A model generated the notes under the pieces. That model ran no database searches, was not told the origin of the DNA, and saw nothing but the letters and a program-made list of their open reading frames with translations. DNA of 64,000 bases, from NCBI GenBank assembly GCA_020444275.1, contig JAHLLG010000002.1:62001-126000 (forward strand), read 5' to 3'. The position numbers were made by a program, and so were the translations under genes. Positions 9,221-47,425 of this stretch are shown here, one piece after another. Each line of letters begins with the position of its first letter. Position 1 is the first letter of the stretch. This stretch comes from Bacteroidota bacterium. GTDB taxonomy: Bacteria; Bacteroidota; Bacteroidia; Bacteroidales; UBA12077.

Positions 9221-9251
9221 AAATCTAGATTTCAAATCAAATTCCTGGCTT

Positions 9252-9777: not shown

Positions 9778-10239
9778 ATGGCTGATTTGGAAAAGATATT
9801 AGAACAGTATCCGTTTGTTCAACGCGATAATCTGATACCAATTCTACAGGAAATTCAGGATAATTATGGATACCTGTCGGAAGAAGCTATTGTGAAGGTT
9901 GGGAGGTATCTTAAGATGCCAACAGCAAAAATATATGGATTAGCTAGTTTTTATCATCATTTTAGGTTTAATACAAAAGGAAAATATCATATAAAAGTTT
10001 GTAATGGAACTTCTTGCCATGCCAGACTAAATACATTAATTATACAGAAGATTGAAAAACTAGTAGGAATAAAAAACGAAGAGGTGACCAAAGATGGCTT
10101 ATTTAGTATTGAAGAGACATCTTGTATGGCTGCTTGTGGAAACGGCCCGGTAATGAGTATTAATGATGAATTCTACCCTGATCTGACAATAGAAAAAGTT
10201 AAGGAAATTATAGATTCGTATAAACGGTTAGAAGAATAG
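9778..10239 (+). CDS. hydC: HydC / NuoE-like [2Fe-2S] subunit of the multimeric [FeFe]-hydrogenase
   Basis: 153 residues, the normal length of NuoE/HydC/HndA proteins. An N-terminal helical bundle (VQRDNLIPILQEIQDNYGYLS; IYGLASFYHHF) is followed by the thioredoxin-like ferredoxin domain with CNGTSC and CMAAC as the four ligands of one [2Fe-2S] cluster. In HydABC enzymes this subunit passes electrons between the flavin subunit and the hydrogenase subunit. Its stop is four bases before the hydB start, and a Rex-like operator with a promoter element precedes it, so it leads the operon. Confidence 0.9.
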   Translation: MADLEKILEQYPFVQRDNLIPILQEIQDNYGYLSEEAIVKVGRYLKMPTAKIYGLASFYHHFRFNTKGKYHIKVCNGTSCHARLNTLIIQKIEKLVGIKNEEVTKDGLFSIEETSCMAACGNGPVMSINDEFYPDLTIEKVKEIIDSYKRLEE

Positions 10240-10243
10240 GATT

Positions 10244-12193: not shown

Positions 12194-12201
12194 AAGTTAT
12201 T

Positions 12202-13938: not shown

Positions 13939-15921
13939 ATGTCAAATAGAGGAAGAGATCTGGTTTATACAGTAAAGAACAGGTGTAGAGTTTGTTACAC
14001 CTGCGTAAGGGAGTGTCCGGCGAAAGCTATTAAAATTATTAACGGACAAGCTGAGGTACTTAATGAACGCTGTATTGTTTGCGGAAACTGCACGAAAGTT
14101 TGTAGTCAGGGTGCTAAGGTGTATCTTAATACAGTCGATCGGGTATATTCTTTATTAAAAAACGGACGAAAAAATGTGGCTATCGTAGCACCCAGTTTTC
14201 CAGCAGAATTTAAAGAAATATCAAATTATAAAATCTTTGTTTCCATGGTCAGATCTATTGGCTTCGACGTAGTTTCTGAGGTCGCTTTTGGTGCTGATCT
14301 GGTTGCAAAAAAGTACAGAGAACTTATTGATAATGAAGCAGGAAAACTTTATATCTCTTCAGATTGTCCGGCAGTAGTTTCCTATATTGAACATTACCAT
14401 TCGGCTTTAGTAAAAGATTTAGCACCAATTGCATCGCCTATGGTAGCCATGTCGAGAGTAATGAAAAGAAAATATGGCGATGATATAAATATCATTTTTA
14501 TAGGTCCTTGTGTGGCAAAAAAAGCAGAAACCAACGAGGTTGACGAAATGATAACTTTTACTGAATTACGCGATGTGTTTGAGGAAAAAGCTATAACACA
14601 AAAAACGGTTCAGCCTACCGAATTTGATCCTCCATTGGGAGGTAAAGGAGCAATATTTCCTGTGAGCAGAGGTTTATTGCAGACAGCAGGAATCACAGAC
14701 GATGTTTTTGATGGTAATATAATTGTGGCCGAAGGCAGAAATAACTTCCAGGAAGCTATTAAAGAATTTGAAGATGGATTATTACGTTCTCAGCATCTCG
14801 AATTACTAAGTTGCGATGGGTGTATTATGGGGCCTGGAATGTCGAGCAAAGGAAAGCATTATACACGTCGGATTTTGGTTAATAATTATGTGCAAAAGAA
14901 AATAAATAGCCTCAATCAAAAAGACTGGGAAAAGGAGATTGATAAATACATTGATATAAATCTGGAGGCTAAGTTTAAACCTAAACACAAATCGCTTAAA
15001 TTTCCCGATTGGAAAGAAGTTGAGAAGGTATTAGAGTCAATGGGAAAAACCGATCCAAAAGATCATTTGAATTGTGGTGCCTGTGGTTATGAGTCGTGCG
15101 AAGAGCATGCTATGGCCATAGTACAGGGGCTGGCCGAAAACGAAATGTGTTTGCCGTATACCATTGAGAAACTCCACAATTCGGTTAACGAACTGGCAGT
15201 AACCAACGAGAAATTAAGTTCCATAAAGCAAGCACTGAAACAGTCAGAGAAGATGGCAAGTATGGGCCAATTGTCAGCAGGTATTGCTCACGAACTAAAT
15301 AACCCACTGGGGGTAGTGGTAATGTACGCAAATATTTTATTAGATGAGGCACCTAAAGATTCACCAATTCATAAAGATTTAAAACTTATTGTTGATCAAA
15401 CCAACCGATGCAAAAAAATTGTAGGCGGATTACTTAACTTTGCACGTAAAAATCAGGTTAACTCTGAAAAAATAAATGTGGTAAATCTTGCTGAGCAAAG
15501 TTTACAGGCAGTTGTTATTCCAAAGGAAATTAACGTTAAGGTCGATTCGGAGCAGATAACTGATGCATATGCGATGATCGATCATGAGCAAATGACCCAG
15601 GTTCTTACTAATCTTATAAAAAATGCTATAGATGCTATGCCGGATGGTGGAAATATTGATGTTAAACTTGAAGAGGAAAACGATCATGTAATTTTTAAGG
15701 TAAAGGATACGGGTGTTGGAATAGAGAAAGAGGCACTGGATAAAATCTTTGAACCATTTTATACAACCAAAGGAATTGGCGAAGGAACAGGATTAGGACT
15801 TGCAACTGCATATGGAATTGTAAAAATGCATAAAGGGAAAATAACGGTATTTTCTAATACAGATGAGAAAGAGGGTCAAACAGGAACAGAATTTAGAATC
15901 TCAATACCACGTTATCAATAA
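13939..15921 (+). CDS. Sensory hydrogenase-like module fused to a histidine kinase
   Basis: Paralogue of the PAS-type sensor at 7358. Order: two [4Fe-4S] motifs (CRVCYTCVRECP, CIVCGNCTKVC), an H-cluster-like domain (about 80-310), a CGACGYESCEEH Fe-S domain (about 375-400), a coiled coil, then HisKA (phospho-His in AGIAHELNNP) and HATPase with NLIKNAIDAM, DTGVGI and GTGLGLA. H-cluster loops are SSDCP (Cys143, with Asp142 where catalytic enzymes have Cys), IGPC (Cys191) and SCDGCIMGPG (Cys292, Cys295). It should turn H2 or redox state into phosphorylation. It lies 12 bases after hydA and 12 before a receiver protein, its likely partner. Confidence 0.88.
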   Translation: MSNRGRDLVYTVKNRCRVCYTCVRECPAKAIKIINGQAEVLNERCIVCGNCTKVCSQGAKVYLNTVDRVYSLLKNGRKNVAIVAPSFPAEFKEISNYKIFVSMVRSIGFDVVSEVAFGADLVAKKYRELIDNEAGKLYISSDCPAVVSYIEHYHSALVKDLAPIASPMVAMSRVMKRKYGDDINIIFIGPCVAKKAETNEVDEMITFTELRDVFEEKAITQKTVQPTEFDPPLGGKGAIFPVSRGLLQTAGITDDVFDGNIIVAEGRNNFQEAIKEFEDGLLRSQHLELLSCDGCIMGPGMSSKGKHYTRRILVNNYVQKKINSLNQKDWEKEIDKYIDINLEAKFKPKHKSLKFPDWKEVEKVLESMGKTDPKDHLNCGACGYESCEEHAMAIVQGLAENEMCLPYTIEKLHNSVNELAVTNEKLSSIKQALKQSEKMASMGQLSAGIAHELNNPLGVVVMYANILLDEAPKDSPIHKDLKLIVDQTNRCKKIVGGLLNFARKNQVNSEKINVVNLAEQSLQAVVIPKEINVKVDSEQITDAYAMIDHEQMTQVLTNLIKNAIDAMPDGGNIDVKLEEENDHVIFKVKDTGVGIEKEALDKIFEPFYTTKGIGEGTGLGLATAYGIVKMHKGKITVFSNTDEKEGQTGTEFRISIPRYQ

Positions 15922-17537: not shown

Positions 17538-18164
17538 ATGAATAAACTTCCGGAAAAAACCATAGGAAGATTAAGTGAATATCGAAGAACGCTACTCAAT
17601 TGTTTGGCCGATGGCAAAACACATATATATTCACATGAATTAGCTAACTTACATAATATAACTGCAGTTCAGGTGCGTCGTGATATTATGTTAATAGGAT
17701 ACTCTACAACGTTAAAAAAAGGATACGATGTAAAAGCACTAATTGATGTGATTGGTGATATTATTGATACCGAACAGGGATTAAATGCAGCGGTAATTGG
17801 TATTGGTAATCTTGGACGAGCAATTACAACGTATTTTAATGGAAAAAGAACAAAACTGCGAATTGCAGCTACCTTTGATACCGATCCGGATAAAACAAAC
17901 CGCGTAATTTCAGGCGTGAAATGTTATCCGATGAGCGAGTTGGAAAAAATCATAAAAGATCAGGACATCTCTATTGGTATTTTAACCGTTCCACCGGAAA
18001 ATGCTGCTGATGTTGCGGAAACATTAATCATGGCAGGAATTAAAGGAATACTAAATTATACATCAACACCTTTAAATGTTTCTCCAAATGTTTACCTCGA
18101 AGAATATGATATGATAACCTCCATTGAAAAGGTTGCATATTTTGTAAAAGAGAAAAATATTTAG
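17538..18164 (+). CDS. rex: Redox-sensing transcriptional repressor Rex
   Basis: 208 residues, typical for Rex. An N-terminal winged helix (RLSEYRRTLLNCL; AVQVRRDIMLIG) is followed by a Rossmann domain with GIGNLGRAI that binds NADH or NAD+, and a C-terminal swap helix (SIEKVAYFVKEK). Rex leaves its TTGTKAAnnnnTTMACAA operators when NADH rises, releasing fermentation and hydrogenase genes. Four such palindromes are in this window, upstream of hydC, the TM1266-TonB-hydG operon, the small ACT-like pair, and hydE, so the local regulon is visible. It sits 41 bases after the hybrid kinase gene. Confidence 0.93.
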   Translation: MNKLPEKTIGRLSEYRRTLLNCLADGKTHIYSHELANLHNITAVQVRRDIMLIGYSTTLKKGYDVKALIDVIGDIIDTEQGLNAAVIGIGNLGRAITTYFNGKRTKLRIAATFDTDPDKTNRVISGVKCYPMSELEKIIKDQDISIGILTVPPENAADVAETLIMAGIKGILNYTSTPLNVSPNVYLEEYDMITSIEKVAYFVKEKNI

Positions 18165-25737: not shown

Positions 25738-27165
25738 ATGAAATTTAAACCAGAGCAATACAGGATAAAGGATCAACGAATGAAACCTTTTATCGATCCG
25801 GAAGAAATTTGGGATTACATCAATAAAACAGAATCGACACCGGAACGAGTTCGCGAGGTTATTGCAAAATCGTTAAATAAAGAGCGATTAAACCTTGAAG
25901 AAACAGCCGTATTAATTAATGCTAAAGATCCTGAATTAATTGAAGAAATAAAGCAGGGAGCAAAAACATTGAAAGAAAAGGTATATGGTAATCGTATCGT
26001 GCTTTTTGCACCACTTTATGTTGGTAACCGATGCATGAATAATTGTAAGTATTGTGGATTTCGTTCAACAAATAAAGAGGCAGAAAGAAAAACTTTATCC
26101 GATCAGGAACTTGTTCATGAAGTAGAAGCATTGGAAGATAATGGGCAAAAACGATTAATTCTGGTGTATGGTGAGCACCGCGATTATTCACCGGAATTTA
26201 TTGCCGATAATGTGCGTACAGTTTACAATGTTAAAAAGGGTAATGGCGAAATTCGTCGTGTTAATATTAATGCGGCACCTCTGGATATAGATGGTTTCAG
26301 GACAGTAAAAGAGGCAGGAATAGGAACTTACCAGGTATTCCAGGAAACGTATCATCCCGAAGAGTATAAGAAATATCACTTAGGTGGTAAAAAGAAAGAT
26401 TTTGACTATAGATTAACTTCTTTAGACAGAGCGCAAGAGGCTGGTTTAGATGATGTTGGAATTGGTGCATTGTTTGGGTTGTACGATTGGAGATACGAAG
26501 TGCTGGCAATGGTTCGTCATACCAATCATTTTGAAGCCTGCTACAATGTTGGTCCACATACGTTATCATTCCCAAGAATACAGGATGCATCAGCAATTGA
26601 TGTTGATCCTAAATATATGGTTAATGATGAAGAGTTTGTAAAACTTATTGCTATTCTTCGTTTAGCTGTTCCGTATACCGGAATGATTTTAACTGCTCGT
26701 GAATCAGCTAAGGTTCGCAGTGAAGTAATGGAATTTGGTGTTTCACAGATCGACGGAGGAACCAAATTAGAGCTTGGAGCATACCATGCGAGTCGCAACG
26801 AAGAGCAAAACCTAAATCGTGAACAATTTGCTATAAACGATAATAGATCGTTGGGTGAAATTATTGATGAGTTAGTTGAGAACGAGTATCTACCATCATT
26901 TTGCACAGCATGTTATAGATTAGGTCGCACAGGTGAGCATTTTATGGAATTTTCAGTTCCCGGATTTATTAAACGATTTTGCACACCGAATGCCATTCTT
27001 ACCTTATCAGAGTATCTGGTTGATTATGCTAAGCCGGAAACAGCAGAAAAGGCATGGAAGGTAATCGATAAAGAGATCAATGGATTGGATGATGATAAAG
27101 TAGCAAGTCAGGTTCGAGAACGTGTAGAGAAAATAAAAGAGGGAGAGCGCGACTTATATTTTTAA
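25738..27165 (+). CDS. hydG: [FeFe]-hydrogenase maturase HydG (radical SAM tyrosine lyase)
   Basis: 475 residues, the family length. The radical SAM motif is CMNNCKYCGF (C-x3-C-x2-C). The C-terminal auxiliary-cluster motif is C-x2-C-x22-C: CTACYR, then Cys after VPGFIKRF, exactly the HydG spacing. HydG splits tyrosine into p-cresol, CO and cyanide and builds an Fe(CO)2(CN) synthon for the H-cluster, which HydE and HydF finish. It is the third gene of the operon after the TM1266 regulator and the TonB receptor, and hydE lies 20 kb away. Confidence 0.96.
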   Translation: MKFKPEQYRIKDQRMKPFIDPEEIWDYINKTESTPERVREVIAKSLNKERLNLEETAVLINAKDPELIEEIKQGAKTLKEKVYGNRIVLFAPLYVGNRCMNNCKYCGFRSTNKEAERKTLSDQELVHEVEALEDNGQKRLILVYGEHRDYSPEFIADNVRTVYNVKKGNGEIRRVNINAAPLDIDGFRTVKEAGIGTYQVFQETYHPEEYKKYHLGGKKKDFDYRLTSLDRAQEAGLDDVGIGALFGLYDWRYEVLAMVRHTNHFEACYNVGPHTLSFPRIQDASAIDVDPKYMVNDEEFVKLIAILRLAVPYTGMILTARESAKVRSEVMEFGVSQIDGGTKLELGAYHASRNEEQNLNREQFAINDNRSLGEIIDELVENEYLPSFCTACYRLGRTGEHFMEFSVPGFIKRFCTPNAILTLSEYLVDYAKPETAEKAWKVIDKEINGLDDDKVASQVRERVEKIKEGERDLYF

Positions 27166-27988: not shown

Positions 27989-28372
27989 ATGTATAATATG
28001 GATGATCTATATATTGATAATACTCCCTCAACTCCTGAAATAAAATTTGAGAAATCAGGTAATTTGAGTATTCGTGGGAAATCATTACCTGAAGACCCTA
28101 AAAGGTTTTACAATCCATTATTTAAGTGGGTAGAGGAACTTAATACCGACAATGTTGATATTCAGGTTCAACTGGAATATGTGAATACTTCGTCATCGAA
28201 AAGAATAATTGAATTATTAAAGAAGATTGATAACAATTCAAAAATTAAGCATGTTAAAATGAACTGGTATTACGAAATTGATGATCCGGACATGCTAGAA
28301 TTCGGCGAAGTTATTCAACACAACTTAAGACGTACGAAAACAAATTATGTGGAATATGACGATGAGGAGTAA
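27989..28372 (+). CDS. SiaC-type (DUF1987) regulatory phosphoprotein
   Basis: 127 residues with the SiaC/DUF1987 pattern: PEIKFEKSGNLSIRGKSLPED near the start, FYNPLFKWVEEL, then LEYVNTSSSKRIIELLKKI. In Pseudomonas, SiaC is phosphorylated on Thr by a kinase (SiaB) and dephosphorylated by a PP2C phosphatase (SiaA), switching a diguanylate cyclase. The Thr/Ser run TSSSK here is the expected phosphorylation region. The only PP2C phosphatase in the window belongs to the sensory-hydrogenase operon at 6163, which makes a link possible but unproven. A perfect palindrome lies just upstream. Confidence 0.8.
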   Translation: MYNMDDLYIDNTPSTPEIKFEKSGNLSIRGKSLPEDPKRFYNPLFKWVEELNTDNVDIQVQLEYVNTSSSKRIIELLKKIDNNSKIKHVKMNWYYEIDDPDMLEFGEVIQHNLRRTKTNYVEYDDEE

Positions 28373-28377
28373 GTAAG

Positions 28378-29493
28378 TTAATCCTCATTTTTTTTGCTAT
28401 AATCTCGATTCACAGATTTATCAAAAGTCATAGCCACTGCACGGTATAATAAGTGACCAAATTTTGTGTAGGGTAAATAGATAATAATAAACCAAACACA
28501 AATTAAGTGGAAAAAGTAAAGGTGATATGCAATACTCCAGTTTAAGAATCTGGCAGTCTCAACAATTACACCAGAAATGGTTAACAGAAACATAGATATC
28601 AAAAATAACCAATCGGCATATGAACTATTACCATAGTTTTCCTTATCTGTTACTCTTTTAATAATCATAACAGTTAGTCCTATAAATAGCATTACTGCTG
28701 CTACATTACCTAAAACTTTAAATGGATTGAATAAGCCTAAAGGATATTGATGTGTAACTGCTGCATAAATGGCAAATGCTGTAACAATTAGTAATAATAT
28801 GAAACCGTAGAAAACTAATACGTGTGCTATCTTTCTTGATTTTTGATTAGAGCACTTGCTGAAATTTGAATGCTGCATTATTTCCTTAAAATTGGAAAAC
28901 AGATTCTTAAAAAAGCTTCCGGTTATTTTTAATTCAGGATTCTGCTTTTTCATATCATTCCAAAAGTTTCTTAATCCGAGAACACCCAATCCAATGGTTA
29001 GGAACCACAATATTGTAAATGAGCTATTCAACCATGCATGTGGGAAAAACTTAGAGTAGTTAACAGGTCCTTCTGGAATTTGTAAAGTGCCTGCCAAATA
29101 TAAAATGGCCGAAATAATAATAACAGGAATTAGTATGGCTGCAGGTAACCATTTCGGACTGCTTAATATTTTACCTAAGAATTTAGGCTTAGCATAATGT
29201 TGATACGATACTTCACGAACTGCCGAAAGTATATCAGCAGGTTTTACTCCACGCGGACAATATGTTGAGCAATCGCCACACTGGTGACACAACCAAACAT
29301 CTGGGTTTCCAATCAATTTGTCTTTCATTCCCCAGCCGGCCCAAATCATCTCTTTTCTTGGGAAAGGTTTATTTTCTGGTGCAAGCGAACATACCACAGA
29401 ACAGTTACCACATTGCATACATTCATTTAACGAACTTTTGCTTATTTGCTTAAGCTGCTTTTTGAATTTTATATCTGGTTGTATATTGATCAT
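28378..29493 (-). CDS. qmoC: QmoC, membrane-bound heme/iron-sulfur subunit of the Qmo complex
   Basis: 371 residues. The N-terminal HdrC-like part has two [4Fe-4S] motifs, CMQCGNCSVVC and CHQCGDCSTYCPRG (residues about 24-90). The C-terminal part has about six membrane segments with histidines placed for b-type hemes (for example KIAHVLVFYG and YHLYFFHLICVWF). This fusion of HdrC with a cytochrome b is characteristic of QmoC, which links the menaquinone pool to QmoAB and so to APS reductase. It is the last gene of aprBA-qmoABC and its stop lies 5 bases from the end of the convergent SiaC-like gene. Confidence 0.92.
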   Translation of the reverse strand: MINIQPDIKFKKQLKQISKSSLNECMQCGNCSVVCSLAPENKPFPRKEMIWAGWGMKDKLIGNPDVWLCHQCGDCSTYCPRGVKPADILSAVREVSYQHYAKPKFLGKILSSPKWLPAAILIPVIIISAILYLAGTLQIPEGPVNYSKFFPHAWLNSSFTILWFLTIGLGVLGLRNFWNDMKKQNPELKITGSFFKNLFSNFKEIMQHSNFSKCSNQKSRKIAHVLVFYGFILLLIVTAFAIYAAVTHQYPLGLFNPFKVLGNVAAVMLFIGLTVMIIKRVTDKENYGNSSYADWLFLISMFLLTISGVIVETARFLNWSIAYHLYFFHLICVWFIIIYLPYTKFGHLLYRAVAMTFDKSVNRDYSKKNED

Positions 29494-29575
29494 ATCTTTG
29501 GTTTCTAGTTTCTTGTTACTGGTTTTTCAAATAGTCATAACTTGGAACTTTGAACTATAAACTTGAGCTAACTTT

Positions 29576-31690
29576 TTACATATCCTTAAACGGATTTGGC
29601 CCTATCAATTCTATTTCTTCCACATAATCGTTAATAATCTGTGGGATTTTATCATAATCTGTTATTTCAATGAATTCAGTTCTGATTCTTTCTGGTTCTA
29701 ACATCATGGTTTCTAATGTTTCCTGGATATTCTCTCCGCGTGTTTGGGTTAGTTCACTTCCGTGAATAAAATGGCATTGATAATCATCACCCGGTTTACA
29801 GCCAATTTGCAGAATTCCGTCGTAACCTTTCGAAAGCGCATCCGAAATCCAGACTTTGTTTACAGATCCTATACAACGCACAGGAATAATCCGGACATAA
29901 GGACTATATTTTAAACCTTTTTGTCCGGCCATATCCAATGCAGGGTATGCATCATTCTCACATACAAAAGCAAGTATTCTTGGTTTTTCTTCAAATTCAT
30001 CTGGAATATCTATGGATTTGATCATCGACGAGATACTATTAATGGAATAATCTGCAAAACCGATTACTCGTTCTGGGCAGGAGCCTAAACAAATACCGCA
30101 ACGCCGACAGCGATTAAGATTTGGAATAGGTGTTCCTTTTTCATTCTCGTCGTATGCTCCAAATGGGCATTCCTCAGTACATCTCTTGCAATCGGTACAA
30201 CGATCAAAATAGAGATCAACATAGGATTTATCTCCTGATCGGGGATGAACTGCTTCACCTCGTTTAGTTGCTTCAATGGTTTGAATTGCTTTAAGCATAG
30301 CACCTGCAGCATCATCTTTACTCGAAGCAATATCCATTGGAGCTCTTAAACTTCCTGCAGCATAAATTCCTGTTCGCCTTGTTTCGTATGGAAAACAGAT
30401 AAAATGCGAATCAGAAAAGTTATATTTTAATTCTGGTAAACCTTTTCCTAATCGGTATTTCAGATTTAGATCTTCCGTACCGTTTGGAACCATTCCGGTT
30501 GCTAAAACAATCATGTCAACCTGCAGAGAAATATCATCTCCAATCAAAGTATCTTTAACACCAACTTTTAGATTGGAACCTTCTTCTGTTATTTCCTGAA
30601 TTTCGCCTTTCGTAAAAAAGATTTGATCATCCTTCTGCACTTCTTTATAAAATTCTTCGTAAAGCCCTAAAGTTCTGATGTCTTTGTAAACAATAAATAC
30701 ATTTGATTCGGGACTCAACTCACGAATATAGGTGGCTTGTTTTAGACTGGTTCCACAACAGAATCCTGAGCAATAGGGTAGATGATCCTTATCACGAGAA
30801 CCTGCACATTGTATAAATAGAATATTTTTTGGTAATTCAGCTTTTGGATTGTTTTTTACAAATTCTTCAAACTCAACATTGGTTAAAACATTTGGTTTTC
30901 CATAACCTAAATGTGGTAACTTGTTCGCATCGTAAGGTTGCCAACCCGTTGCTGTAACAATAGAACCAACTGTTATTGTTTCAGCAGAACCGTTTAATAA
31001 ACTTACCTGAAACTGGCCGGGTTGACCTGAGATCTCTTTTATGATAGTTGATGTATGTACTTCTATTAATTCATTCGATTCTATTTCAGCTATTTTTTCC
31101 TTTATCTCAATTTCTTTTAATTGATTGTAAGGCGCCGAAGAAGGAATTTGTTTATAAAGCTTGTTTAACCAGCCACCCAGCTTTTCTTCTTTTTCAATCA
31201 AATGAACCTTATAGCCGGTTCTTGCCCCGTTTAACGCAGCCGTTATTCCTGTTATTCCACCACCAACAACCAAGATATCTGAACTAATTTTATCTGCAAT
31301 AAACGGGGTTGGAACATTGATATTATTGACTTTTGTAATAGCCATGCGAAGGTAATCTTCTGCAGCCATTTGGGTATCTTCCTCGCCGGGTTCCATGCAC
31401 CACGCTACTTGTTCGCGAATATTTGTGCGTTCAAGTAAAATGTTTTCAGGAAAATCAAATACTTCAGTTTTTGCGCGCGGTGAGCATGCTGCAATCACTA
31501 CTTTTTCAATTTCTTCATTTTGAATATCATTATTAATGATATCAAAACCTTCAATCGAGCAAAGTGATTTGTGTGATTTGCAAACTGCTACATTTTGTTC
31601 TGAAGATGCTAACTGGCAAAGTTTTTCGGTATCTAAAGCTTTACCGATCTCACATCCTGAACAGATATATACTCCTACTTTTTTATTCAT
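29576..31690 (-). CDS. qmoB: QmoB, HdrA/MvhD-like flavoprotein of the Qmo complex
   Basis: 704 residues. The N-terminal HdrA-type region starts VGVYICSGCEIG and has a second Cys group VAWCMEPGEED; an FAD Rossmann site (DILVVGGGITGITAA) follows near residue 138; VQCAGSRDKDHLPYCSGFCC carries the HdrA Cys cluster; CTDCKRCTEECP and CRRCGICLGSCP bind two [4Fe-4S] clusters (about 500-550). The last 170 residues are the MvhD-like domain (CENDAYP, VRCIGSVN, IGCKPGDDYQCHF) ending in GPNPFKDM. QmoB takes part in electron transfer, perhaps with confurcation, between QmoC and APS reductase. Confidence 0.92.
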   Translation of the reverse strand: MNKKVGVYICSGCEIGKALDTEKLCQLASSEQNVAVCKSHKSLCSIEGFDIINNDIQNEEIEKVVIAACSPRAKTEVFDFPENILLERTNIREQVAWCMEPGEEDTQMAAEDYLRMAITKVNNINVPTPFIADKISSDILVVGGGITGITAALNGARTGYKVHLIEKEEKLGGWLNKLYKQIPSSAPYNQLKEIEIKEKIAEIESNELIEVHTSTIIKEISGQPGQFQVSLLNGSAETITVGSIVTATGWQPYDANKLPHLGYGKPNVLTNVEFEEFVKNNPKAELPKNILFIQCAGSRDKDHLPYCSGFCCGTSLKQATYIRELSPESNVFIVYKDIRTLGLYEEFYKEVQKDDQIFFTKGEIQEITEEGSNLKVGVKDTLIGDDISLQVDMIVLATGMVPNGTEDLNLKYRLGKGLPELKYNFSDSHFICFPYETRRTGIYAAGSLRAPMDIASSKDDAAGAMLKAIQTIEATKRGEAVHPRSGDKSYVDLYFDRCTDCKRCTEECPFGAYDENEKGTPIPNLNRCRRCGICLGSCPERVIGFADYSINSISSMIKSIDIPDEFEEKPRILAFVCENDAYPALDMAGQKGLKYSPYVRIIPVRCIGSVNKVWISDALSKGYDGILQIGCKPGDDYQCHFIHGSELTQTRGENIQETLETMMLEPERIRTEFIEITDYDKIPQIINDYVEEIELIGPNPFKDM

Positions 31691-31810
31691 ATTTAATATA
31701 TGTTTTTACCACAAAGTTCTCAAAGTAGGCACAAAGATCACAAAGTACTAATCTTAGAGTGCTTTGTGTAAATCATTGTGTTCATTGTGGTTAATTTTTA
31801 TCTCTTAATT
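31691..31810. repeat. Repeat-filled spacer between qmoA and qmoB
   Basis: Three copies of CACAAAG and the inverse forms CTTTGTG and CATTGTG (two copies) fill these 120 bases. The ends ACCACAAAG and CATTGTGGT are imperfect inverted repeats. No ORF is present. Confidence 0.6.
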
Positions 31811-33037
31811 TTATTGTATCGCTTTTAGAGCTGCTCCTGTTGCATCTTTCAATGATGTTGAAACATCCATTGGTTTTCGACTACACGCAACCGGAATAAT
31901 TCCTTCTGTTTGTGCATCAGTCATAAATTGATTAGAATCTTTATTCAGCTTTATATTGATATTTGATGGAACAATACCTGTCGCCAAAACAGCCAGTTCA
32001 GCTTCGTATTTTATCTTCTTGCCAGATAAAATATCTTCAGCTTCAAGAATTAAATTGTTATTTTCAGTTTCAGTAATCTTACCAACTTTACCTTTAACCA
32101 ACTCAATATTTTTATTTGTCTGAACTTTTGCTAAGAAATCTTCATTGCGTCCTGAAACTCTTAAGTCGATATAGAAAATCTTGATTTCTGATTTTGGATA
32201 AAGTTCCTGAATGGTTAAAGCATGCTTTAATGATGCAGAGCAGCAAACTGCCGAACAGTAGGGAAGGTGATTTTCGTCACGAGAGCCGGCACATTGTACA
32301 AATGCTATTTTCTTAGGTTCTGTATTATCAGATAGTCTTAATAATTTGTTTTCACCAACACCATTCGATGCAATAAAACGCTCAAATTCAACATTGGTAA
32401 TGATATTCTTTGATGACGAATAATTCAGATTATCAATTTTTGAAGCATCGTAGTTTTTCCATCCTGTTGCTACCACAACTGAACTTACTTCAAGTTCTTT
32501 GATCTCTTCTTTTGCAGATAAATTAATGGCATCATACTCACAAACTTCTGCACATTTGTTGCAAGCTTCTTTTTTACAAAACTCATCATCGATAACATAT
32601 TTGTAAGGAAAAGCCATTTCGTGTGGCAGGTATGCTGCTTTTGTTTTGGTAAATCCATAATTAAAATCATTAGGGCGTTCTTCAGGACATACTTTAGCAC
32701 ATTTTCCGCAAGCTGTACAATTGTTTTTAATGTATTGTGGAGCCGTTTTAAGTTTAGCTTTGAAGTTTCCTTTTTCTCCTGCTATTTCCAATACTTCAGT
32801 CGAAGTAAAATAATTGATTCTCGGATTTTGTTTGATTCTACGAAAGTTGATTTCTAATCCGCAAGTGGGTGGGCATAGTTTTGGGAAGTAGTTATTGAAT
32901 TTAACCACATTTCCACCTAAATAAGGTTCTTTCTCAATCAAAATAACTTCTTTACCAACTTCAGCAATTTCAACAGCAGTTGTTACACCGCTTATACCAC
33001 CTCCGATAACCAGAACAGGTTTTTGTGTTTTATTCAT
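31811..33037 (-). CDS. qmoA: QmoA, HdrA-like FAD subunit of the Qmo complex
   Basis: 408 residues, the usual QmoA length. VLVIGGGISGVTTAVEIAE is the FAD-binding start; YFPKLCPPTCGLEINFRRIK is a QmoA/HdrA signature; FVQCAGSRDENHLPYCSAVCC the HdrA Cys region; VLATGIVPS the second dinucleotide motif. Between residues about 108 and 170 it also has two ferredoxin-like motifs, CTACGKCAKVCP and CKKEACNKCAEVC. It carries FAD in the cytoplasmic part of Qmo and hands electrons to APS reductase. The spacers on both sides are low-complexity repeats rather than tight overlaps. Confidence 0.9.
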   Translation of the reverse strand: MNKTQKPVLVIGGGISGVTTAVEIAEVGKEVILIEKEPYLGGNVVKFNNYFPKLCPPTCGLEINFRRIKQNPRINYFTSTEVLEIAGEKGNFKAKLKTAPQYIKNNCTACGKCAKVCPEERPNDFNYGFTKTKAAYLPHEMAFPYKYVIDDEFCKKEACNKCAEVCEYDAINLSAKEEIKELEVSSVVVATGWKNYDASKIDNLNYSSSKNIITNVEFERFIASNGVGENKLLRLSDNTEPKKIAFVQCAGSRDENHLPYCSAVCCSASLKHALTIQELYPKSEIKIFYIDLRVSGRNEDFLAKVQTNKNIELVKGKVGKITETENNNLILEAEDILSGKKIKYEAELAVLATGIVPSNINIKLNKDSNQFMTDAQTEGIIPVACSRKPMDVSTSLKDATGAALKAIQ

Positions 33038-33120
33038 TTAAATCAAGTTTCTGGTTACGTGTTACTAGTTACTTGTTTTAACCGGCTACAAGCAACCAGT
33101 AACCAGTAACGAATTATAAT
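33038..33120. repeat. Repeat-filled spacer between aprA and qmoA
   Basis: Read on the minus strand the 83 bases contain several degenerate copies of GTTACTGGTT and GTAAC (GTTACTGGTTACTGGTTG; AAGTAACTAGTAACACGTAAC). No ORF and no terminator. Confidence 0.6.
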
Positions 33121-35010
33121 TTAAGTAAGTTCTTTAATATCTCTCTTAATCATTTCCCACTCATTGGTTTCCGGATTCCATTTACAGTTTGCAAATGCTT
33201 TCCAGTCTTCTTTCATGGTAGGATAATCTGTTCTGAAATAATATCCCGGCCAACGAGTTTCTTCTCTGAATAGCATGGTTCTAATATGCGACTCGGCTTG
33301 CCATAATCTATGAACATTTTCCCATGCACGCATTAATTCATTTAAATCTGATGCGGCTAGTTTTTCAGCATCTTCTTTCATGAATTCAAGGAATTCGAGT
33401 CCCTTTTCCAATAATGCTTTCGATGTTTTAAACCCTACAGAAGCACCACCAGCGTATTCATCCATTATTTTTTGTAAACGGAACATGAATATCTTAGGCT
33501 TAATGAAATTAGGATTTACATCTTCATCGTTTGCATAATCTTTATGCTCTTCGAATACAGCCATTGGCTGCAGAACTCTTTCTTTCAGTTCATTTATTTT
33601 TTCTTCATCAATATTAACTGCAGATTCATTATCAACAATAAATGCTAATGCAGCTTTTGCTGCAATACGACCTTCAGTAAACGAACCTGAAGAGAATTTA
33701 TGCGATGAAGCACCTGAAGCATCACCAGCTGCGAACAAACCTTTAACGGTTGTCATGTTATCGTATCCCCAATGGTACTCATCTGAAGGCGATAAGTCTT
33801 TTGGTCCACTAATCCAGGCACCAGAAGCACCGGAGTGTGAGCTAATGAAATAGGGTTCGCAAGCAGAAATCTCAGAAGGACTTTCTTCTGGTGATATATT
33901 GTGTGCTGCCCAGTTTAATGCCTGACTAACAGTCATATCCAAGAAATCTTCCCAGGCTTCTGATTCCAATTCTTTCATTTTGCGTTTTGCCTCTTTTTCG
34001 TCAACGATATCTGCCATTAATTGTTTAATAGCTTCATCCGTACGCATATAGATTGGTCCGTTTCCTTCTTCTAATTCTTGAAGCATCAAATAGTTTCTAA
34101 GGTTTGCTGGCGTTGGTTGTGAAGTTCCGTAAGGAGCCCATTTTTCCAGCTCATCTTTTCGGGTTTCCATATAATCTTCACCTTTGGCATTGGTTGCTTT
34201 CGATTTGAATAACAGGAACCATGCACCAACAGGTCCGTATGAATCTTTAAAACGCACCGGAACAAAACGAACTTCCTGACAGGTCATCTCTGCACCGGCT
34301 TTTAGCGTGAAATAAGTACTTGCACCAGAGTTAAATGGCGGATACCACGAGCGGCCTAATCCTTCACCAACAGAACGTGGACGGAAAATATGAACTGCAC
34401 CACCCATCACATCAAGAACTGCCTGAGCTTTAAAAATGTAAAATTTATTCTCGCGAACACTAAAACCAGCAGCACCCACACATCGATCACCATCCATAAT
34501 AGGCTCAGTAATAAAAATACGTTCGTAGTATTCTCCATTCTCACCTAGTTCTTTCAATGCATTTTTAGCTGCTTCCGAAACTATGTTTTTGTATGATTCA
34601 CCATGAATCATAATTTGCCAGCGACCTTCGTTGATGTAATTTCCTTCTTCATCTTTCCAAATAGGTAATCCCCATTTTTCGAATAAATGAACCGATGAAT
34701 CCACGTGACGAGCAATGTTTGCAACCAAGTCGTCACGAGTAATTCCCATTAAGTCGTTCTTAACATAGTTAATATAATCTTCAACGGTGTTTTTGCCGTT
34801 TTTTAAACCCAGGTAAAGATTTATTGCTGAAAGTCCCATGGCTACAGCTCCGCTGCGTTCCATAGCGGCTTTATCGACAACGGTAACTTTTTTATTGTGT
34901 TTTTTTGCCCAGTGTGAAGCTTCATAAGCAGCGCCGCAAGCTGCCATACCGCCGCCAAGTATTAGTAAATCAGTTTCAACTATTACGGTTTCAAAGTCGT
35001 TTGTTATCAT
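33121..35010 (-). CDS. aprA: Dissimilatory adenylylsulfate (APS) reductase, alpha subunit
   Basis: 629 residues. The FAD site is LLILGGGMAACGAAYE (15-30). ERSGAVAMGLSAIN, GRWQIMIHGESYKN and RPRSVGEGLGRSWYP are signatures of AprA and not of fumarate reductase. The sulfite/APS pocket residues known from Archaeoglobus are matched by Arg253 (VRFKDSYGPVGAWF) and His392 (SSHSGASGAW). HKFSSGSFTEGR closes the FAD domain. The enzyme interconverts APS with sulfite plus AMP in the cytoplasm, in sulfate reduction or in sulfite oxidation. Partners are AprB upstream and QmoABC downstream. Confidence 0.95.
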   Translation of the reverse strand: MITNDFETVIVETDLLILGGGMAACGAAYEASHWAKKHNKKVTVVDKAAMERSGAVAMGLSAINLYLGLKNGKNTVEDYINYVKNDLMGITRDDLVANIARHVDSSVHLFEKWGLPIWKDEEGNYINEGRWQIMIHGESYKNIVSEAAKNALKELGENGEYYERIFITEPIMDGDRCVGAAGFSVRENKFYIFKAQAVLDVMGGAVHIFRPRSVGEGLGRSWYPPFNSGASTYFTLKAGAEMTCQEVRFVPVRFKDSYGPVGAWFLLFKSKATNAKGEDYMETRKDELEKWAPYGTSQPTPANLRNYLMLQELEEGNGPIYMRTDEAIKQLMADIVDEKEAKRKMKELESEAWEDFLDMTVSQALNWAAHNISPEESPSEISACEPYFISSHSGASGAWISGPKDLSPSDEYHWGYDNMTTVKGLFAAGDASGASSHKFSSGSFTEGRIAAKAALAFIVDNESAVNIDEEKINELKERVLQPMAVFEEHKDYANDEDVNPNFIKPKIFMFRLQKIMDEYAGGASVGFKTSKALLEKGLEFLEFMKEDAEKLAASDLNELMRAWENVHRLWQAESHIRTMLFREETRWPGYYFRTDYPTMKEDWKAFANCKWNPETNEWEMIKRDIKELT

Positions 35011-35083
35011 GTTTTTTAAGTTTCAGGTTGCAAGTTTCAAGATTCAAGTTTATATCTTGCATCTTGTTTCTTGATACTAGGTT
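35011..35083. repeat. Repeat-filled spacer between aprB and aprA
   Basis: On the minus strand, degenerate CAAGAAACAAGATGCAAG faces CTTGAATCTTGAAACTTG, so the 73 bases can fold as a long imperfect hairpin in the mRNA. No ORF. Confidence 0.6.
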
Positions 35084-35518
35084 CTATTTCTCGTATAAAT
35101 CGGTCCCAAGTGATTCCGGTTCTGTTCTTAGCAGTGGACTTTTTAAATCATCAGTTCCTGTCTCCATTCCTGCATCAGGTTCCGCCGTTCCTTCAGGGAT
35201 TGTTCTGATCGGAAATTTAAATCGTTTTATTTTTTTATTTCTGAACCGAACCGACCACATAATTGAATCTGTACTTCGAAGTGGTTGAACTACAGCGCCC
35301 AATGGCATAAAATCTGCATATCCGCGAATTTCTATAGCTTGTGTTGGACATATTTTTACACAACTGTAACATTCCCAGCACATATCAACAGCACGGTTAT
35401 ATGCTTTGTTTTTTTCTTTATCCAATACCATTAAATCGTTCGGACATATAAACTGGCAGGCAGTTTTGTCAAGGGCTTTACAACCATCACACTTTTCGTT
35501 TATTACGAAGCTTGGCAT
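35084..35518 (-). CDS. aprB: Dissimilatory adenylylsulfate (APS) reductase, beta subunit
   Basis: 144 residues, normal for AprB. Eight Cys in two groups bind two [4Fe-4S] clusters: Cys10, 13, 21, 25 (CDGCKALDKTACQFICP) and Cys47, 50, 53, 57 (CWECYSCVKICP). Trp48 in the second group matches the Trp described as lying on the electron path in Archaeoglobus AprB. The C-terminal tail (SIMWSVRFRNKKIKRFKFPIR) wraps AprA in known structures. It is the first gene of the leftward aprBA-qmoABC operon; no sat gene precedes it. Confidence 0.95.
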   Translation of the reverse strand: MPSFVINEKCDGCKALDKTACQFICPNDLMVLDKEKNKAYNRAVDMCWECYSCVKICPTQAIEIRGYADFMPLGAVVQPLRSTDSIMWSVRFRNKKIKRFKFPIRTIPEGTAEPDAGMETGTDDLKSPLLRTEPESLGTDLYEK

Positions 35519-44177: not shown

Positions 44178-46541
44178 CTAAATTTCTTCATGTTCTGTTC
44201 GCCGAATAATTTCATTTTGTAGGTCTTCTCCCAGATCATTGAAGTAATCGCTATATCCTGCAACACGAACAATTAAATCTGTATATTTCTCAGGATGCTT
44301 TTGTGCATCGCGTAAGGTTCTTGCACTAACCACATTAAACTGAATATGATGTCCGTCCATTCGGAAATAGCTTCTTACCAGGTGTCCAAGTTTTTCAATG
44401 CTTTTTTCATCTTTGAAAAATGTTGGAGAGAATTTCTGATTCAACAGGGTGCCGCCAGTTTTAAGGTGATCTATTTTTGCAGCAGATTTAAGAACTGCCG
44501 TTGGTCCTTTTTTATCGGCTCCCTGGAAAGGACTTATGCCTTCTGATAATGGTTCAAAAGCTTTTCTTCCGTCGGGTGTTGCTTTCATTACACTGCCAAA
44601 GTACACATGCGATGTGGTCGGTAACATATTAATTCTGAATTTTCCTACACGATAAGTTGGTTTGTCATTGATAGCATCGTAAAACATTTCAAAAACTTTT
44701 ACTGCATATTGATCCGCATAATCATCATCGTTGCCGTATTTTGGAGTTTCATAAATTAAATCATGACGCAATTGATCGTACCCTTCAAAATTAGCTTCCA
44801 TTGCTTTTAAGAGTTCATCCATTGTAATGTTTTCTTTCTCGAAAACATTGTATTGTATAGATGTTAAATTGTCTGTAACACTTCCTAGTCCAACTCCCTG
44901 AACATAACTGGTATTATAACGAGCTCCACCTGCATTGTAATCTACACCATTCGAAATGCAATCTTCAATAATTAGCGACAAAAATGGAACTGGCAACTCC
45001 TCAGCATATAGTTTTTCAATGATATTATTTCCATTGAGTTTGATATCCGCGAAATAGTTTAGTTGCTTGTTATAGGCTTGTCGCAAATCCTCCATGGATT
45101 TAAACTCTCTTGGATCGCCAGTTTTAATTCCAATTTGTTTTCCTGATTTTGGATCAATACCATTATGGAGCGTCACTTCCAGTATCTTATTTAAATTAAA
45201 ATAACCGGTTAAGATGTAGCTTTCAGTACCAAATGCTCCTGTTTCAACACATCCACTTGCACCACCATTTCGGGCATCAACAATATCCTTCCCCTGGTTA
45301 ATTAATTCCTTAACAATTGCGTCTGTATTAAAAATGGAAGGCTGTCCAAATCCGGTTTTGGTAATTTTAATTGCTCGTTGAATAAAGTCATCCGGGTTCT
45401 TTTTACTCAGTTGTACCATTGAACTAGGTTGAAGAATTCGCATTTCTTCAATAACATCTAAAATAATGTAGGTTAGTTCGTTTACTGCATCTGTTCCGTC
45501 TTCTTTTACGCCACCTAAGTTAATTAATGAGAAGTCAGTGTAGGTATTACTTTCCAACGCGGTTACTCCCATTTTGGGTGGGGCAGGGTGATTGTTGAAT
45601 TTAATCCAGAATGCTTGTAATAGTTCAGTGGTAGATTCTTTGGTTAATGTGCCATTTTCAACCTCTTTTTTATAGAGCGGATATAAGTGTTGATCTAGTC
45701 TGCCTGGGTTGAACGAATCCCAAGGATTTACTTCTGTTATAACACCCAAATGAATAAACCAGTAGTGCTGAAGCATTTCATGAAAAGTTTCTGGTGCATT
45801 GGCCGGTACTTTACGACAAATTCTTGCCATTTCAAGTAGTTCAGCTTTTCGGTTTGAGTCGTTTTCAATAGTTGCGAGTTTATCCAATTCTTCAGCGTGG
45901 CGATGAGCAAAAAGTATTATTGCATCTGCAGCGATATTCATTGCTTTTAATTCTTCAATTTTATCTTGAGCTTTTGGATCATCTGAATTCTGATACTTTT
46001 CTATTGATTCCTGAATCTCTTTTTTCAGGTTTAGCATGCCATTCTGGAATATTTTTTTTCCGGCAACTGTGTGCCCCGGAGCGCGTTGTTCCTGAAATTC
46101 GGTAAAAATACCTGCTTCGTAGGCAGCTTTCCAGTCATCTGGAAGTAACACAAACATTTTATCGCGTTGTGAGTTTGCTTTCCAAAAAGGTATGATCTCT
46201 TCTTTATATGTCTTTTTTGTTTCATCATCAACACGGAACCAAACTTTAGGTCGGTTATTTAATACTTCTAAATCATGTAAAGAGTGCAAGCTAACTTCAG
46301 GATAGGTAGGAGTAGCTTTGGGTGCTGGTCCGCGTTCACCAACAATCAGTTCATTTTCGTTAATACAAATCTTTTTGTTTTCCAGAATGTTTTTAAATGT
46401 CAATGCTCTTTTTACAGGTATTGAAACCTGATTTGCTATATCGCTTTTATAAAATTCAGTAACCAGCATTGCGCGCTCTGCTGATAATCTATTTACAGCT
46501 GTTAAGCTTTCGTTTCTGAGTTTTTTTATTCGGCTATTCAT
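44178..46541 (-). CDS. hypD: Glycyl radical enzyme, probably trans-4-hydroxy-L-proline dehydratase
   Basis: 787 residues against 789 for Clostridioides HypD. The active-site loop is SGCVETGAFG with thiyl Cys431 and base Glu433; the glycyl radical Gly762 is in RVAGYSDYF. These, together with His157 (GHTVAG) and Asp275 (NPWDSF), lie exactly three residues before the residues I recall for HypD (434, 436, 765, 160, 278). PFL has ACCVSP instead and is excluded; choline lyase is longer. HypD turns hydroxyproline to pyrroline-5-carboxylate by radical dehydration. The activase is 89 bases upstream. No proC is near. Confidence 0.82.
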   Translation of the reverse strand: MNSRIKKLRNESLTAVNRLSAERAMLVTEFYKSDIANQVSIPVKRALTFKNILENKKICINENELIVGERGPAPKATPTYPEVSLHSLHDLEVLNNRPKVWFRVDDETKKTYKEEIIPFWKANSQRDKMFVLLPDDWKAAYEAGIFTEFQEQRAPGHTVAGKKIFQNGMLNLKKEIQESIEKYQNSDDPKAQDKIEELKAMNIAADAIILFAHRHAEELDKLATIENDSNRKAELLEMARICRKVPANAPETFHEMLQHYWFIHLGVITEVNPWDSFNPGRLDQHLYPLYKKEVENGTLTKESTTELLQAFWIKFNNHPAPPKMGVTALESNTYTDFSLINLGGVKEDGTDAVNELTYIILDVIEEMRILQPSSMVQLSKKNPDDFIQRAIKITKTGFGQPSIFNTDAIVKELINQGKDIVDARNGGASGCVETGAFGTESYILTGYFNLNKILEVTLHNGIDPKSGKQIGIKTGDPREFKSMEDLRQAYNKQLNYFADIKLNGNNIIEKLYAEELPVPFLSLIIEDCISNGVDYNAGGARYNTSYVQGVGLGSVTDNLTSIQYNVFEKENITMDELLKAMEANFEGYDQLRHDLIYETPKYGNDDDYADQYAVKVFEMFYDAINDKPTYRVGKFRINMLPTTSHVYFGSVMKATPDGRKAFEPLSEGISPFQGADKKGPTAVLKSAAKIDHLKTGGTLLNQKFSPTFFKDEKSIEKLGHLVRSYFRMDGHHIQFNVVSARTLRDAQKHPEKYTDLIVRVAGYSDYFNDLGEDLQNEIIRRTEHEEI

Positions 46542-46553
46542 TTTTCTTTTCTT

Positions 46554-46626
46554 TTGTCATTCCGGCGAAGACCCGGAATCTCTTTTACTTAACTAATAGA
46601 TTCTTGCATGTGTGTGTGAATGACAA
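46554..46626. mobile_element. 73-bp MITE/REP-like element between activase and glycyl radical enzyme
   Basis: Perfect 9-bp terminal inverted repeats TTGTCATTC and GAATGACAA enclose an inner 7-bp palindrome ATTCCGG/CCGGAAT. The core resembles the GTCATTCCGGCGAAGACCCGGAATC type of dispersed repeat. No ORF is inside and no target duplication is obvious. Confidence 0.6.
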
Positions 46627-46630
46627 TTGT

Positions 46631-47425
46631 TTATCCACCAATTCCAACTTTAAATCCAACAGATTCAAATTCTGTTTTTATCTTAAGCATCTCTTCATCA
46701 GATAATGGTTTGGTATCTTTCATTTTATTTTCGATCTTAAATCGATTATACTTTCCATTGGAAATGTTATGATAGGGCAACAAATCAATCTGGTTAATAT
46801 TTTTTAATGATTGAAGAAGTAGCTTAATCTTAGTGATGTTTTTTTTAGTATACGTTATTCCGGGTATAACTGGAAATCTTAAAATGACATTTTTATTGTT
46901 TTGATCGAGCCATTTCAAATTCTCAATGATTCCATGCACCGGAACTCCGGTAAATTTTTCATGTAAATTATTGTCTGTTATTTTAATATCGTATAAAAAA
47001 CAATCTGTTAATTCTGCTATCCTTTGTATTGTTCTAAGTGATGCAAATCCGGTTGTATCAACACATGAATGAATACCATCGTTTTTACAGAGACCAAGAA
47101 TTTTATACAAAAAATCTGCTTGCAGTAATGGTTCACCTCCAGAGAATGTTACACCACCGCCAGATTCTTCAAAAAAGATTTTATCACCCTGAATGGTTTG
47201 AAAAAGCTCTTCGATTGTTACTCTATAACCGATCTCCGTTTCTTTTTTAAATTCCTTGCCATCCAGCTTGTTGGTGCGAATATACTTCTCAGGTTTTGGA
47301 TTTTGACTCTCAGGATTGTGACACCACCAACATCTTAACGGGCATCCCTTAAAAAATATAGTTTGTCGTATGCCCGGGCCATCGTGCACAGCAAAATGTT
47401 TTATATCGAAAATTGTTCCTTCCAT
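46631..47425 (-). CDS. Glycyl radical enzyme activase (radical SAM), short form without ferredoxin insert
   Basis: 264 residues. The radical SAM cluster motif is CPLRCWWC (Cys28, 32, 35), then VTFSGGEPLLQ for SAM binding. Most activases of dehydratase-type glycyl radical enzymes carry a ferredoxin-like insert with eight Cys after CHNPES; here that stretch (PEKYIRTNKLDGKEFKKE) has none, so the length is that of PflA. It should put the radical on Gly762 of the enzyme encoded next. Its separation from that gene by a 73-bp palindromic element is unusual. Confidence 0.85.
   Translation of the reverse strand: MEGTIFDIKHFAVHDGPGIRQTIFFKGCPLRCWWCHNPESQNPKPEKYIRTNKLDGKEFKKETEIGYRVTIEELFQTIQGDKIFFEESGGGVTFSGGEPLLQADFLYKILGLCKNDGIHSCVDTTGFASLRTIQRIAELTDCFLYDIKITDNNLHEKFTGVPVHGIIENLKWLDQNNKNVILRFPVIPGITYTKKNITKIKLLLQSLKNINQIDLLPYHNISNGKYNRFKIENKMKDTKPLSDEEMLKIKTEFESVGFKVGIGG

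Follow-up and report, generated by a model that had tools for sequence, protein, structure and literature searches.

The dissimilatory adenosine 5'-phosphosulfate (APS) reductase AprBA and the complex QmoABC are parts of the Sat-AprBA-QmoABC-Dsr pathway of sulfate reducers such as Archaeoglobus, Desulfobacterota and Candidatus Thermonerobacter in Kapabacteria, and Chlorobia have sat-aprBA-qmoABC, likewise with QmoC. The gene aprA is in general use as a marker for sulfate reduction or sulfur oxidation. Here we describe a complete aprB-aprA-qmoA-qmoB-qmoC operon in a Bacteroidales genome in which neither Sat nor Dsr was found. The operon lies in a stretch of 64,000 nucleotides (the window), which is positions 62001-126000 of contig C9 in a genome of 4.22 Mb (10 contigs, 98.87% complete).

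In Kapabacteria the genes sat, aprBA, qmo and dsr were described together (PMC6338057), and the text of a survey anchored on dsrAB names Chlorobia and Kapabacteria among Bacteroidota (PMC10591310). A sequence-only reading of this DNA knew of no characterised sulfate-reducing or sulfite-oxidising Bacteroidota; this holds at best for the class, and Dsr pathways are published for the two groups just named. For the White Oak River bins, the seeming origin of the relative L049 (SM23_62), apr is named for Gammaproteobacteria and Gemmatimonadetes only, in the available part of that paper (PMC4411801), and Bacteroidota are among the sulfate reducers listed from Zodletone spring (PMC9040765). Genomes with Apr or Qmo but no Dsr are already published as a class: by one count, 563 (meta)genomes lack the Dsr pathway and have AprA/B and/or QmoA/B/C (PMC10504309). 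Our full-text literature search, mostly judged by title or abstract and with preprints and most subscription journals outside its scope, found no description of AprBA-QmoABC without Sat and Dsr in Bacteroidales.

Genes of the operon

The five genes are successive open reading frames on the minus strand, spanning 35518-28378 with intergenic gaps of 73, 83, 120 and 82 bases. All are intact, with neither stop nor frameshift, and AprA, AprB and QmoC scored above their curated cut-offs, so the operon is complete as had been read from the letters.

The gene aprB (35084-35518, minus strand; 144 amino acids) encodes the beta subunit with two [4Fe-4S] clusters. It was identified by TIGR02060 (195.5 bits, cut-off 135.7), PF12139 and alignment with 1jnr_B over residues 1-141. 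Exactly eight cysteines, at 10, 13, 21, 25, 47, 50, 53 and 57, are in register with that structure, which agrees with the earlier statement that the cluster cysteines are kept. The gene aprA (33121-35010, minus strand; 629 amino acids) encodes the alpha subunit binding flavin adenine dinucleotide (FAD). It matched TIGR02061 with 873 bits (cut-off 642) and aligned near full length with AprA of Archaeoglobus fulgidus (1jnr_A; E 3e-235, 786 bits), and these two matches rule out a fumarate reductase-like protein, an identity that had been named as a possible refutation. Ten positions, which we take to be FAD/APS pocket residues, were compared with A. fulgidus. Nine of them (N74, Y95, E141, W234, R265, L278, H398, F448 and S449) are invariant in all rows of the AprA clade described below that have letters there. 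The tenth, position 281, is K or Q, with Q in 7 of 28 clade rows, and the claim that the pocket is kept stands for the nine only. By both subunits above curated cut-offs, the AprA positions and the AprB cysteines, we assign this pair to the dissimilatory APS reductase AprBA, with interconversion of APS and sulfite as its predicted activity.

Downstream, qmoA (31811-33037, minus strand; 408 amino acids) encodes an HdrA-like flavoprotein, recognised by HdrA-type matches, Fer4 and FAD domains and its position, and the same gene is in the operons of relatives. The gene qmoB (29576-31690, minus strand; 704 amino acids) encodes another HdrA-like flavoprotein with a C-terminal FlpD/MvhD domain (PF02662, 139 bits), placed also by a QmoB tree. 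The gene qmoC (28378-29493, minus strand; 371 amino acids) encodes the quinone-facing subunit, an HdrC-like Fe-S domain fused to a membrane cytochrome b-like domain; it matched NF038018 with 404 bits (cut-off 300), and PF02665 with 22.3 bits, slightly below the cut-off of 22.9. QmoA and QmoB scored as HdrA-like, and among the 25 best models listed none was specific for either, so their names were given because of gene order, the FlpD domain and the adjoining QmoC. With QmoC above cut-off, two HdrA-like subunits and FlpD in QmoB, we assign these three predicted proteins to the Qmo complex.

All five genes are under purifying selection. The ratio of nonsynonymous to synonymous substitution rates (dN/dS) against the nearest relative, L033, ran from 0.035 (AprA) to 0.075 (QmoC), ratios that are rough since dS was 1.1-1.8; dS was saturated for two of the five genes against L034 and for all five against L037 and L048.

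An AprA clade in which CysH is common and neither Sat nor siroheme reductase was found

A scan of named genomes gave at least 572 confirmed AprA loci (at least 584 stretches), of which 80 were kept, so the clade may be larger than counted here. Among these 80, the best 19 relatives (L033-L051; AprA identity 76-94%) are all metagenome-assembled genomes (MAGs). Eighteen have Bacteroid- titles and one, L035, is titled Chlorobiota, yet falls inside the AprA clade; the next AprA in the same set is from a deltaproteobacterial MAG at 73%. In an order sample of 149 genomes, AprA was found at E <= 1e-100 in 10, over 8 family codes (9 above cut-off, one split over two contigs), and a same-genus genome, 98% complete, was without it. 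In a phylum sample, AprA was above cut-off in 13 of 395 genomes, namely the window genome, 11 of family code f19 and one of f34.

The AprA tree (94 rows; a quick search without bootstrap, and without proteobacterial sulfur oxidisers and archaeal copies) placed all 29 clade rows on one side of one branch, with a Shimodaira-Hasegawa-like approximate likelihood ratio (SH-aLRT) of 98. The 29 rows are 25 genomes, as L046/L147, L043/L146, L048/L150 and L039/L149 are duplicates with identical AprA. Eight f19 aprA loci (L004, L005, L007-L011, L015) and L154 were omitted, and L100, L105 and L109, Bacteroidetes by title but grouped with Kryptoniota and positive for NIR_SIR, were counted outside the clade. 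In a QmoB tree of 63 rows, 15 Bacteroidales rows were on one branch (SH-aLRT 100). What had looked like a single odd genome does carry the operon, but apr-qmo is a clade trait, found in 25 genomes or more and, within the order sample, in 8 family-level groups. One lateral transfer of the cassette into the order, followed by inheritance and patchy loss, would be the simplest reading of this distribution, not the only one.

Profile searches of the whole window genome found no Sat (PF01747; control genomes positive in 5 of 14) and no NIR_SIR protein (PF01077, a family that includes DsrAB as well as the sulfite reductases of assimilation; control positive in 11 of 14), and therefore no DsrAB. It means that Sat or Dsr elsewhere in this genome is ruled out at family level, and the suggestion of a full pathway elsewhere falls. 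The same searches covered 28 of the 80 kept loci (19 of the clade by AprA identity and 9 others) plus L003 and L013. NIR_SIR was absent from all 25 clade genomes (the window genome, the 19 relatives, for which no completeness values are at hand, and five more from the order sample). Sat was absent from the 20 tested (window genome and 19 relatives), the five further genomes being outside this test. Among the other AprA-bearing genomes of this search, NIR_SIR was found in 11 of 11 and Sat in 10 of 11, against 0 of 19 relatives for each. A Bacteroidales MAG titled Zod_Metabat (L042) likewise has apr-qmo and neither NIR_SIR nor Sat.

The assimilatory genes are different. PAPS_reduct (PF01507) had two matches in the window genome, CysH on contig C1 and CysD on contig C7, the latter within a CysC-CysD-CysN set. 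CysD, CysN and CysH were all above cut-off (TIGR02039, TIGR02034 and TIGR02055; CysH 272 > 235), and CysH, the APS reductase that depends on thioredoxin, has the cysteine pattern CC ... CxxC ... CGLH, presumably that of [4Fe-4S] APS reductases. In the 24 other clade genomes CysH and CysD were told apart by match length and not by separate models. Counted in this way CysH is in 24 of 25 clade genomes (own and 23 of 24 others; one partial, none in G413). CysN was sought in the window genome only. Within the order sample, CysH was above the TIGR02055 cut-off in 10/10 genomes with AprA and 70/139 without (Fisher p 0.0015, uncorrected for kinship).

The gene cysH is also close to the operon in part of the clade. 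Its distance from aprA is below 10 kb in 10 of 25 genomes (G398, G401, G403, G405, G406, G410, G411, G496, G504 and G545); in the other 14 besides the window genome, several of which are fragmented MAGs, no such closeness was seen. In L043 and L044 no other likely gene intervenes between aprB and an upstream cysH of the same strand, the two being about 275 and 229 bases apart, and in f63 cysH stands beyond qmoC. In L048 and L049 it is divergent from apr-qmo with four genes between. Two AprA-negative genomes (L187, L188) have the same rho-Mur ligase-cysH block without apr-qmo, therefore cysH was probably first in that context. Binomial values for the proximity are 9.9e-17 for 10 of 25, 1.2e-5 for 4 and 0.009 for 2, and they are rough because there may be as few as two to four independent contexts. 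The cassette repeatedly settled, or was kept, near cysH. Among the annotated recurrent neighbour clusters CysH was the sole sulfur gene, and the context was variable, so a further conserved partner beyond the five genes was rejected.

The genes between cysH and apr-qmo in L048 (5284-8878) and L049 include an NhaA antiporter, a MurU-like nucleotidyltransferase and an AmgK-like kinase fused to a RapZ C-terminal domain, and of these three the last two are found again elsewhere in the clade, close to cysH or apr-qmo. Beside cysH of the window genome is a divergent AMP-binding (acyl-CoA synthetase-like) gene (L189:6202-7926), which by sequence clustering is also beside cysH in the same-genus relative and two close relatives (L185, L209, L210).

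Three molybdopterin enzymes (PF00384) of the window genome were examined as SoeA or PhsA. One is a formate dehydrogenase (TIGR01591, 820 > 666); a 678-amino-acid DmsA-like protein is below every cut-off shown and an FdhA-like fusion is below its cut-offs, and neither can be assigned to Soe or Phs. At L195:9232-12557 (contig C8 of the window genome), the DmsA-like catalytic protein, without obvious twin-arginine translocation (Tat) signal, adjoins a DmsB-DmsC-like fusion, which would perhaps form a cytoplasm-facing quinone-linked oxidoreductase.

Possible function of AprBA-QmoABC

We tentatively propose that AprBA-QmoABC is a laterally acquired, reversible sulfite/APS:menaquinone oxidoreductase, which may work on the assimilatory APS/sulfite pool and oxidise mainly sulfite, as a valve. 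CysDN would make APS from sulfate, CysC could draw APS to 3'-phosphoadenosine 5'-phosphosulfate (PAPS), and CysH would reduce APS to sulfite. AprBA would then convert sulfite and AMP to APS with release of two electrons, and QmoABC would hand them to menaquinone, from which they would reach a terminal reductase (NrfHA is one candidate). The APS might return to sulfate by CysDN in reverse, or go to PAPS or CysH. The cell would remove a toxic product and gain some ATP if CysDN runs backwards. NrfHA is present in the window genome, and menaquinone is likely made because MqnE is above cut-off.

AprBA most likely works in the sulfite-oxidising direction because there is no siroheme sulfite reductase to consume sulfite. 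Reduction of APS just to sulfite with menaquinol costs activation energy, brings little gain (two electrons) and leaves a toxic product if no other enzyme consumes the sulfite, and sulfite oxidation is favoured for this reason.

Several points weigh against this proposal. Sequence does not tell the direction of AprBA-Qmo, the nearness of CysH to aprBA could mean that both run the same way and not in opposite ways, and reverse CysDN in vivo is assumed. CysD is found in 17 of 25 clade genomes (own and 16 of 24 others clear; 3 partial, 5 not found), and in the window genome cysH (contig C1) and aprA (contig C9) are not near each other. The AprA clade is nested among rows including the cultured sulfate reducers Desulfosporosinus, Desulforamulus, Desulfotruncus and Desulfofundulus (Bacillota and others), with MAGs of Myxococcota, Zixibacteria, Kryptoniota and Acidobacteria also among its neighbours, and it is far from the f19 copies, which are taken for Chlorobia. 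The absence of siroheme reductases is not special to AprA-bearing genomes, because they are rare in the whole order (0/10 with AprA, 10/139 without). Besides CysH, no source of sulfite was identified in the window genome, where PF00384 was the one genome-wide search that bears on sulfonate lyases, thiosulfate reductases and exporters.

Two other functions are unlikely, to about the same degree. One is dissimilatory sulfite oxidation as the main energy pathway, in which external sulfite, or sulfite derived from sulfonates or thiosulfate/polysulfide, would feed the menaquinone pool through AprBA-Qmo, with the same chemistry as in a valve and with nitrite (by NrfHA) or some substrate of the DmsABC-like complex as acceptor. 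In its favour are the complete membrane-anchored Qmo, the DmsA/DmsB-C-like complex without obvious Tat signal and, in 14 of the 25 genomes of the clade, an NrfA above 500 bits, but NrfA was weak in 3 and not found in 8 of the others, the genome looks fermentative ([FeFe] hydrogenase), and no sulfite-releasing enzyme was found: the glycyl radical enzyme at 44178-46541 of the window, considered as an isethionate lyase, is a trans-4-hydroxyproline dehydratase. The other is a second, biosynthetic APS reductase, parallel to CysH, which would reduce CysDN-made APS with menaquinol and give sulfite for sulfonates such as sulfonolipids. In its favour are the CysH neighbourhood and a methanogen AprAB relative deposited as PAPS reductase (8a8o), and the text on Dsr-less organisms proposes assimilatory AprAB use (PMC10504309). 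A non-sulfide fate of sulfite is also probable in the order, where CysH is above cut-off in 80/149 genomes and siroheme reductases occur in 10/149. However, CysH already does this step, and for trace biosynthesis a module of five genes with a link to quinone is a high cost.

The same order-wide numbers (CysH 80/149, siroheme sulfite/nitrite reductase 10/149) are an observation in their own right: many bacteria of this order seem to make sulfite without a known way of reducing it. Some sulfite user is likely, since CysH is above cut-off in 70/139 genomes without AprA and 139/149 lack NIR_SIR, so an unusual sulfite reductase outside NIR_SIR might complete an assimilatory or dissimilatory pathway. 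We consider this improbable as the explanation of the operon; no candidate was found, and such an enzyme is not specific to the AprA-bearing genomes.

Still less probable is a Dsr-free sulfate respiration, in which CysDN would activate sulfate, AprBA-Qmo would make sulfite and a non-siroheme enzyme such as NrfHA would take it to sulfide. Sulfite would have to be exported to reach NrfA, which is periplasmic, activation by CysDN is more costly than by Sat, and no more than 14 of the 25 genomes of the clade have NrfA above 500 bits. On the other side, the parts are present in the window genome, its AprA is nested among those of sulfate reducers, and NrfA was reported to reduce sulfite to sulfide in vitro (PMC8840924).

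AprBA-QmoABC with CysH could also be an electron shuttle, which we regard as very unlikely. CysH would reduce APS to sulfite with thioredoxin, AprBA would re-oxidise it to APS, and electrons would reach menaquinone via Qmo, with APS/sulfite as catalytic redox carrier; if true, a fermenting cell would drain thioredoxin reductant into its membrane quinones, with no net turnover of sulfur and no need of Sat or Dsr.

Contamination of the operon contig is unlikely because the operon is interior to a contig of 1.28 Mb, in a genome that is 98.9% complete, has similar GC content and has flanks common to close relatives, and the earlier view that it is at home in the chromosome agrees with this. Contamination, mis-binning or assembly loss of Sat/Dsr is hardly credible: the relatives' records are MAGs, the 19 named ones have no completeness value and about 1% of the window genome is missing by its own, but the position, the GC and the flanks common to L033 and L034 are against it, and NIR_SIR is equally absent in 25 of 25 clade genomes. 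GC is 36.5% in the operon and 34.8% and 34.1% in the 15 kb to either side. The 2-kb stretch of aprA (33001-35000) has 39.5%, the highest 2-kb value of the window, a mild rise inside the operon without a step at its edges, where a GC shift had been named as a possible refutation.

To the left of the operon is a convergent SiaC-like gene (27989-28372, plus strand; PF09345), a flank marker common to L033, L034 and L045, and then hydG (25738-27165, plus strand), a [FeFe]-hydrogenase maturase above the TIGR03955 cut-off and common to L033. To the right is a C1-like peptidase gene on the same strand as apr-qmo, and a 9-pair stem with T-tail (35784-35763) lies between it and aprB. Scans for promoter-like sites (26, 28.2 expected) and terminator-like sites (7, 4.6 expected) were uninformative overall.

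Elsewhere in the window, 9778-13926 and 17538-18164 hold a three-gene [FeFe] hydrogenase (thioredoxin-like 2Fe-2S, NuoF-like and HydA) and, some genes further on, a redox regulator of the Rex-like kind. Two proteins (7358-9235 and 13939-15921) each have a [FeFe]-hydrogenase-like domain and a second Fe-S motif. The latter, a fusion with a histidine kinase, belongs to the same gene run as the hydrogenase and response regulators and looks like a hydrogen sensor. At 44178-47425 are trans-4-hydroxy-L-proline dehydratase (1254 bits, cut-off 1100) and a 264-amino-acid activase, which scored 289 against 425 and is shorter than its model. Because of this hydrogenase and dehydratase we read the organism as a fermenting anaerobe.

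Comparison with known systems

Surveys based on aprA would miscount at least 25 Bacteroidales-like genomes with aprA and qmo (NIR_SIR 0/25, Sat 0/20). If sulfite oxidation is true, an unrecognised sulfite sink is added; if APS reduction is true, a sulfate user needing no Dsr is added. Because the link with CysH recurs, the question can be tested.

To our knowledge SAR11 (Candidatus Pelagibacter) is without Qmo, which the window genome has. SAR11 likewise has AprBA without Sat or Dsr, and sulfite detoxification is proposed in the available text (PMC5069961), a precedent for the valve proposed here. The SAR11 type of detoxification is also marked by AprBA that is lowered when sulfur is limiting. 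That text reports cysDNCHIJ and sat as absent (its table lists a cysC), whereas CysDN and CysH are present here; in gene absence the window genome resembles SAR11, with Qmo and CysH besides. For the Dsr-less Apr/Qmo genomes, the term "Bacteroid" is absent from the main text, and Sat loss combined with a CysH link is not described in the available text (PMC10504309). The AprA-like PAPS reductase of Methanothermococcus (8a8o) also has an AprA-family alpha subunit, but the window AprA matched it with 330 bits, against 786 for A. fulgidus AprA.

Chlorobia are in the same broad phylum in GTDB terms, but AprA of f19 is on a separate long branch, and G106, the f19 genome tested, has Sat and NIR_SIR. 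The sulfate reducers have the same AprBA and QmoABC, and AprA of the clade is nested among theirs, whereas the clade has Sat in 0/20 and DsrAB in 0/25 genomes, with CysDN (window genome) and CysH instead.

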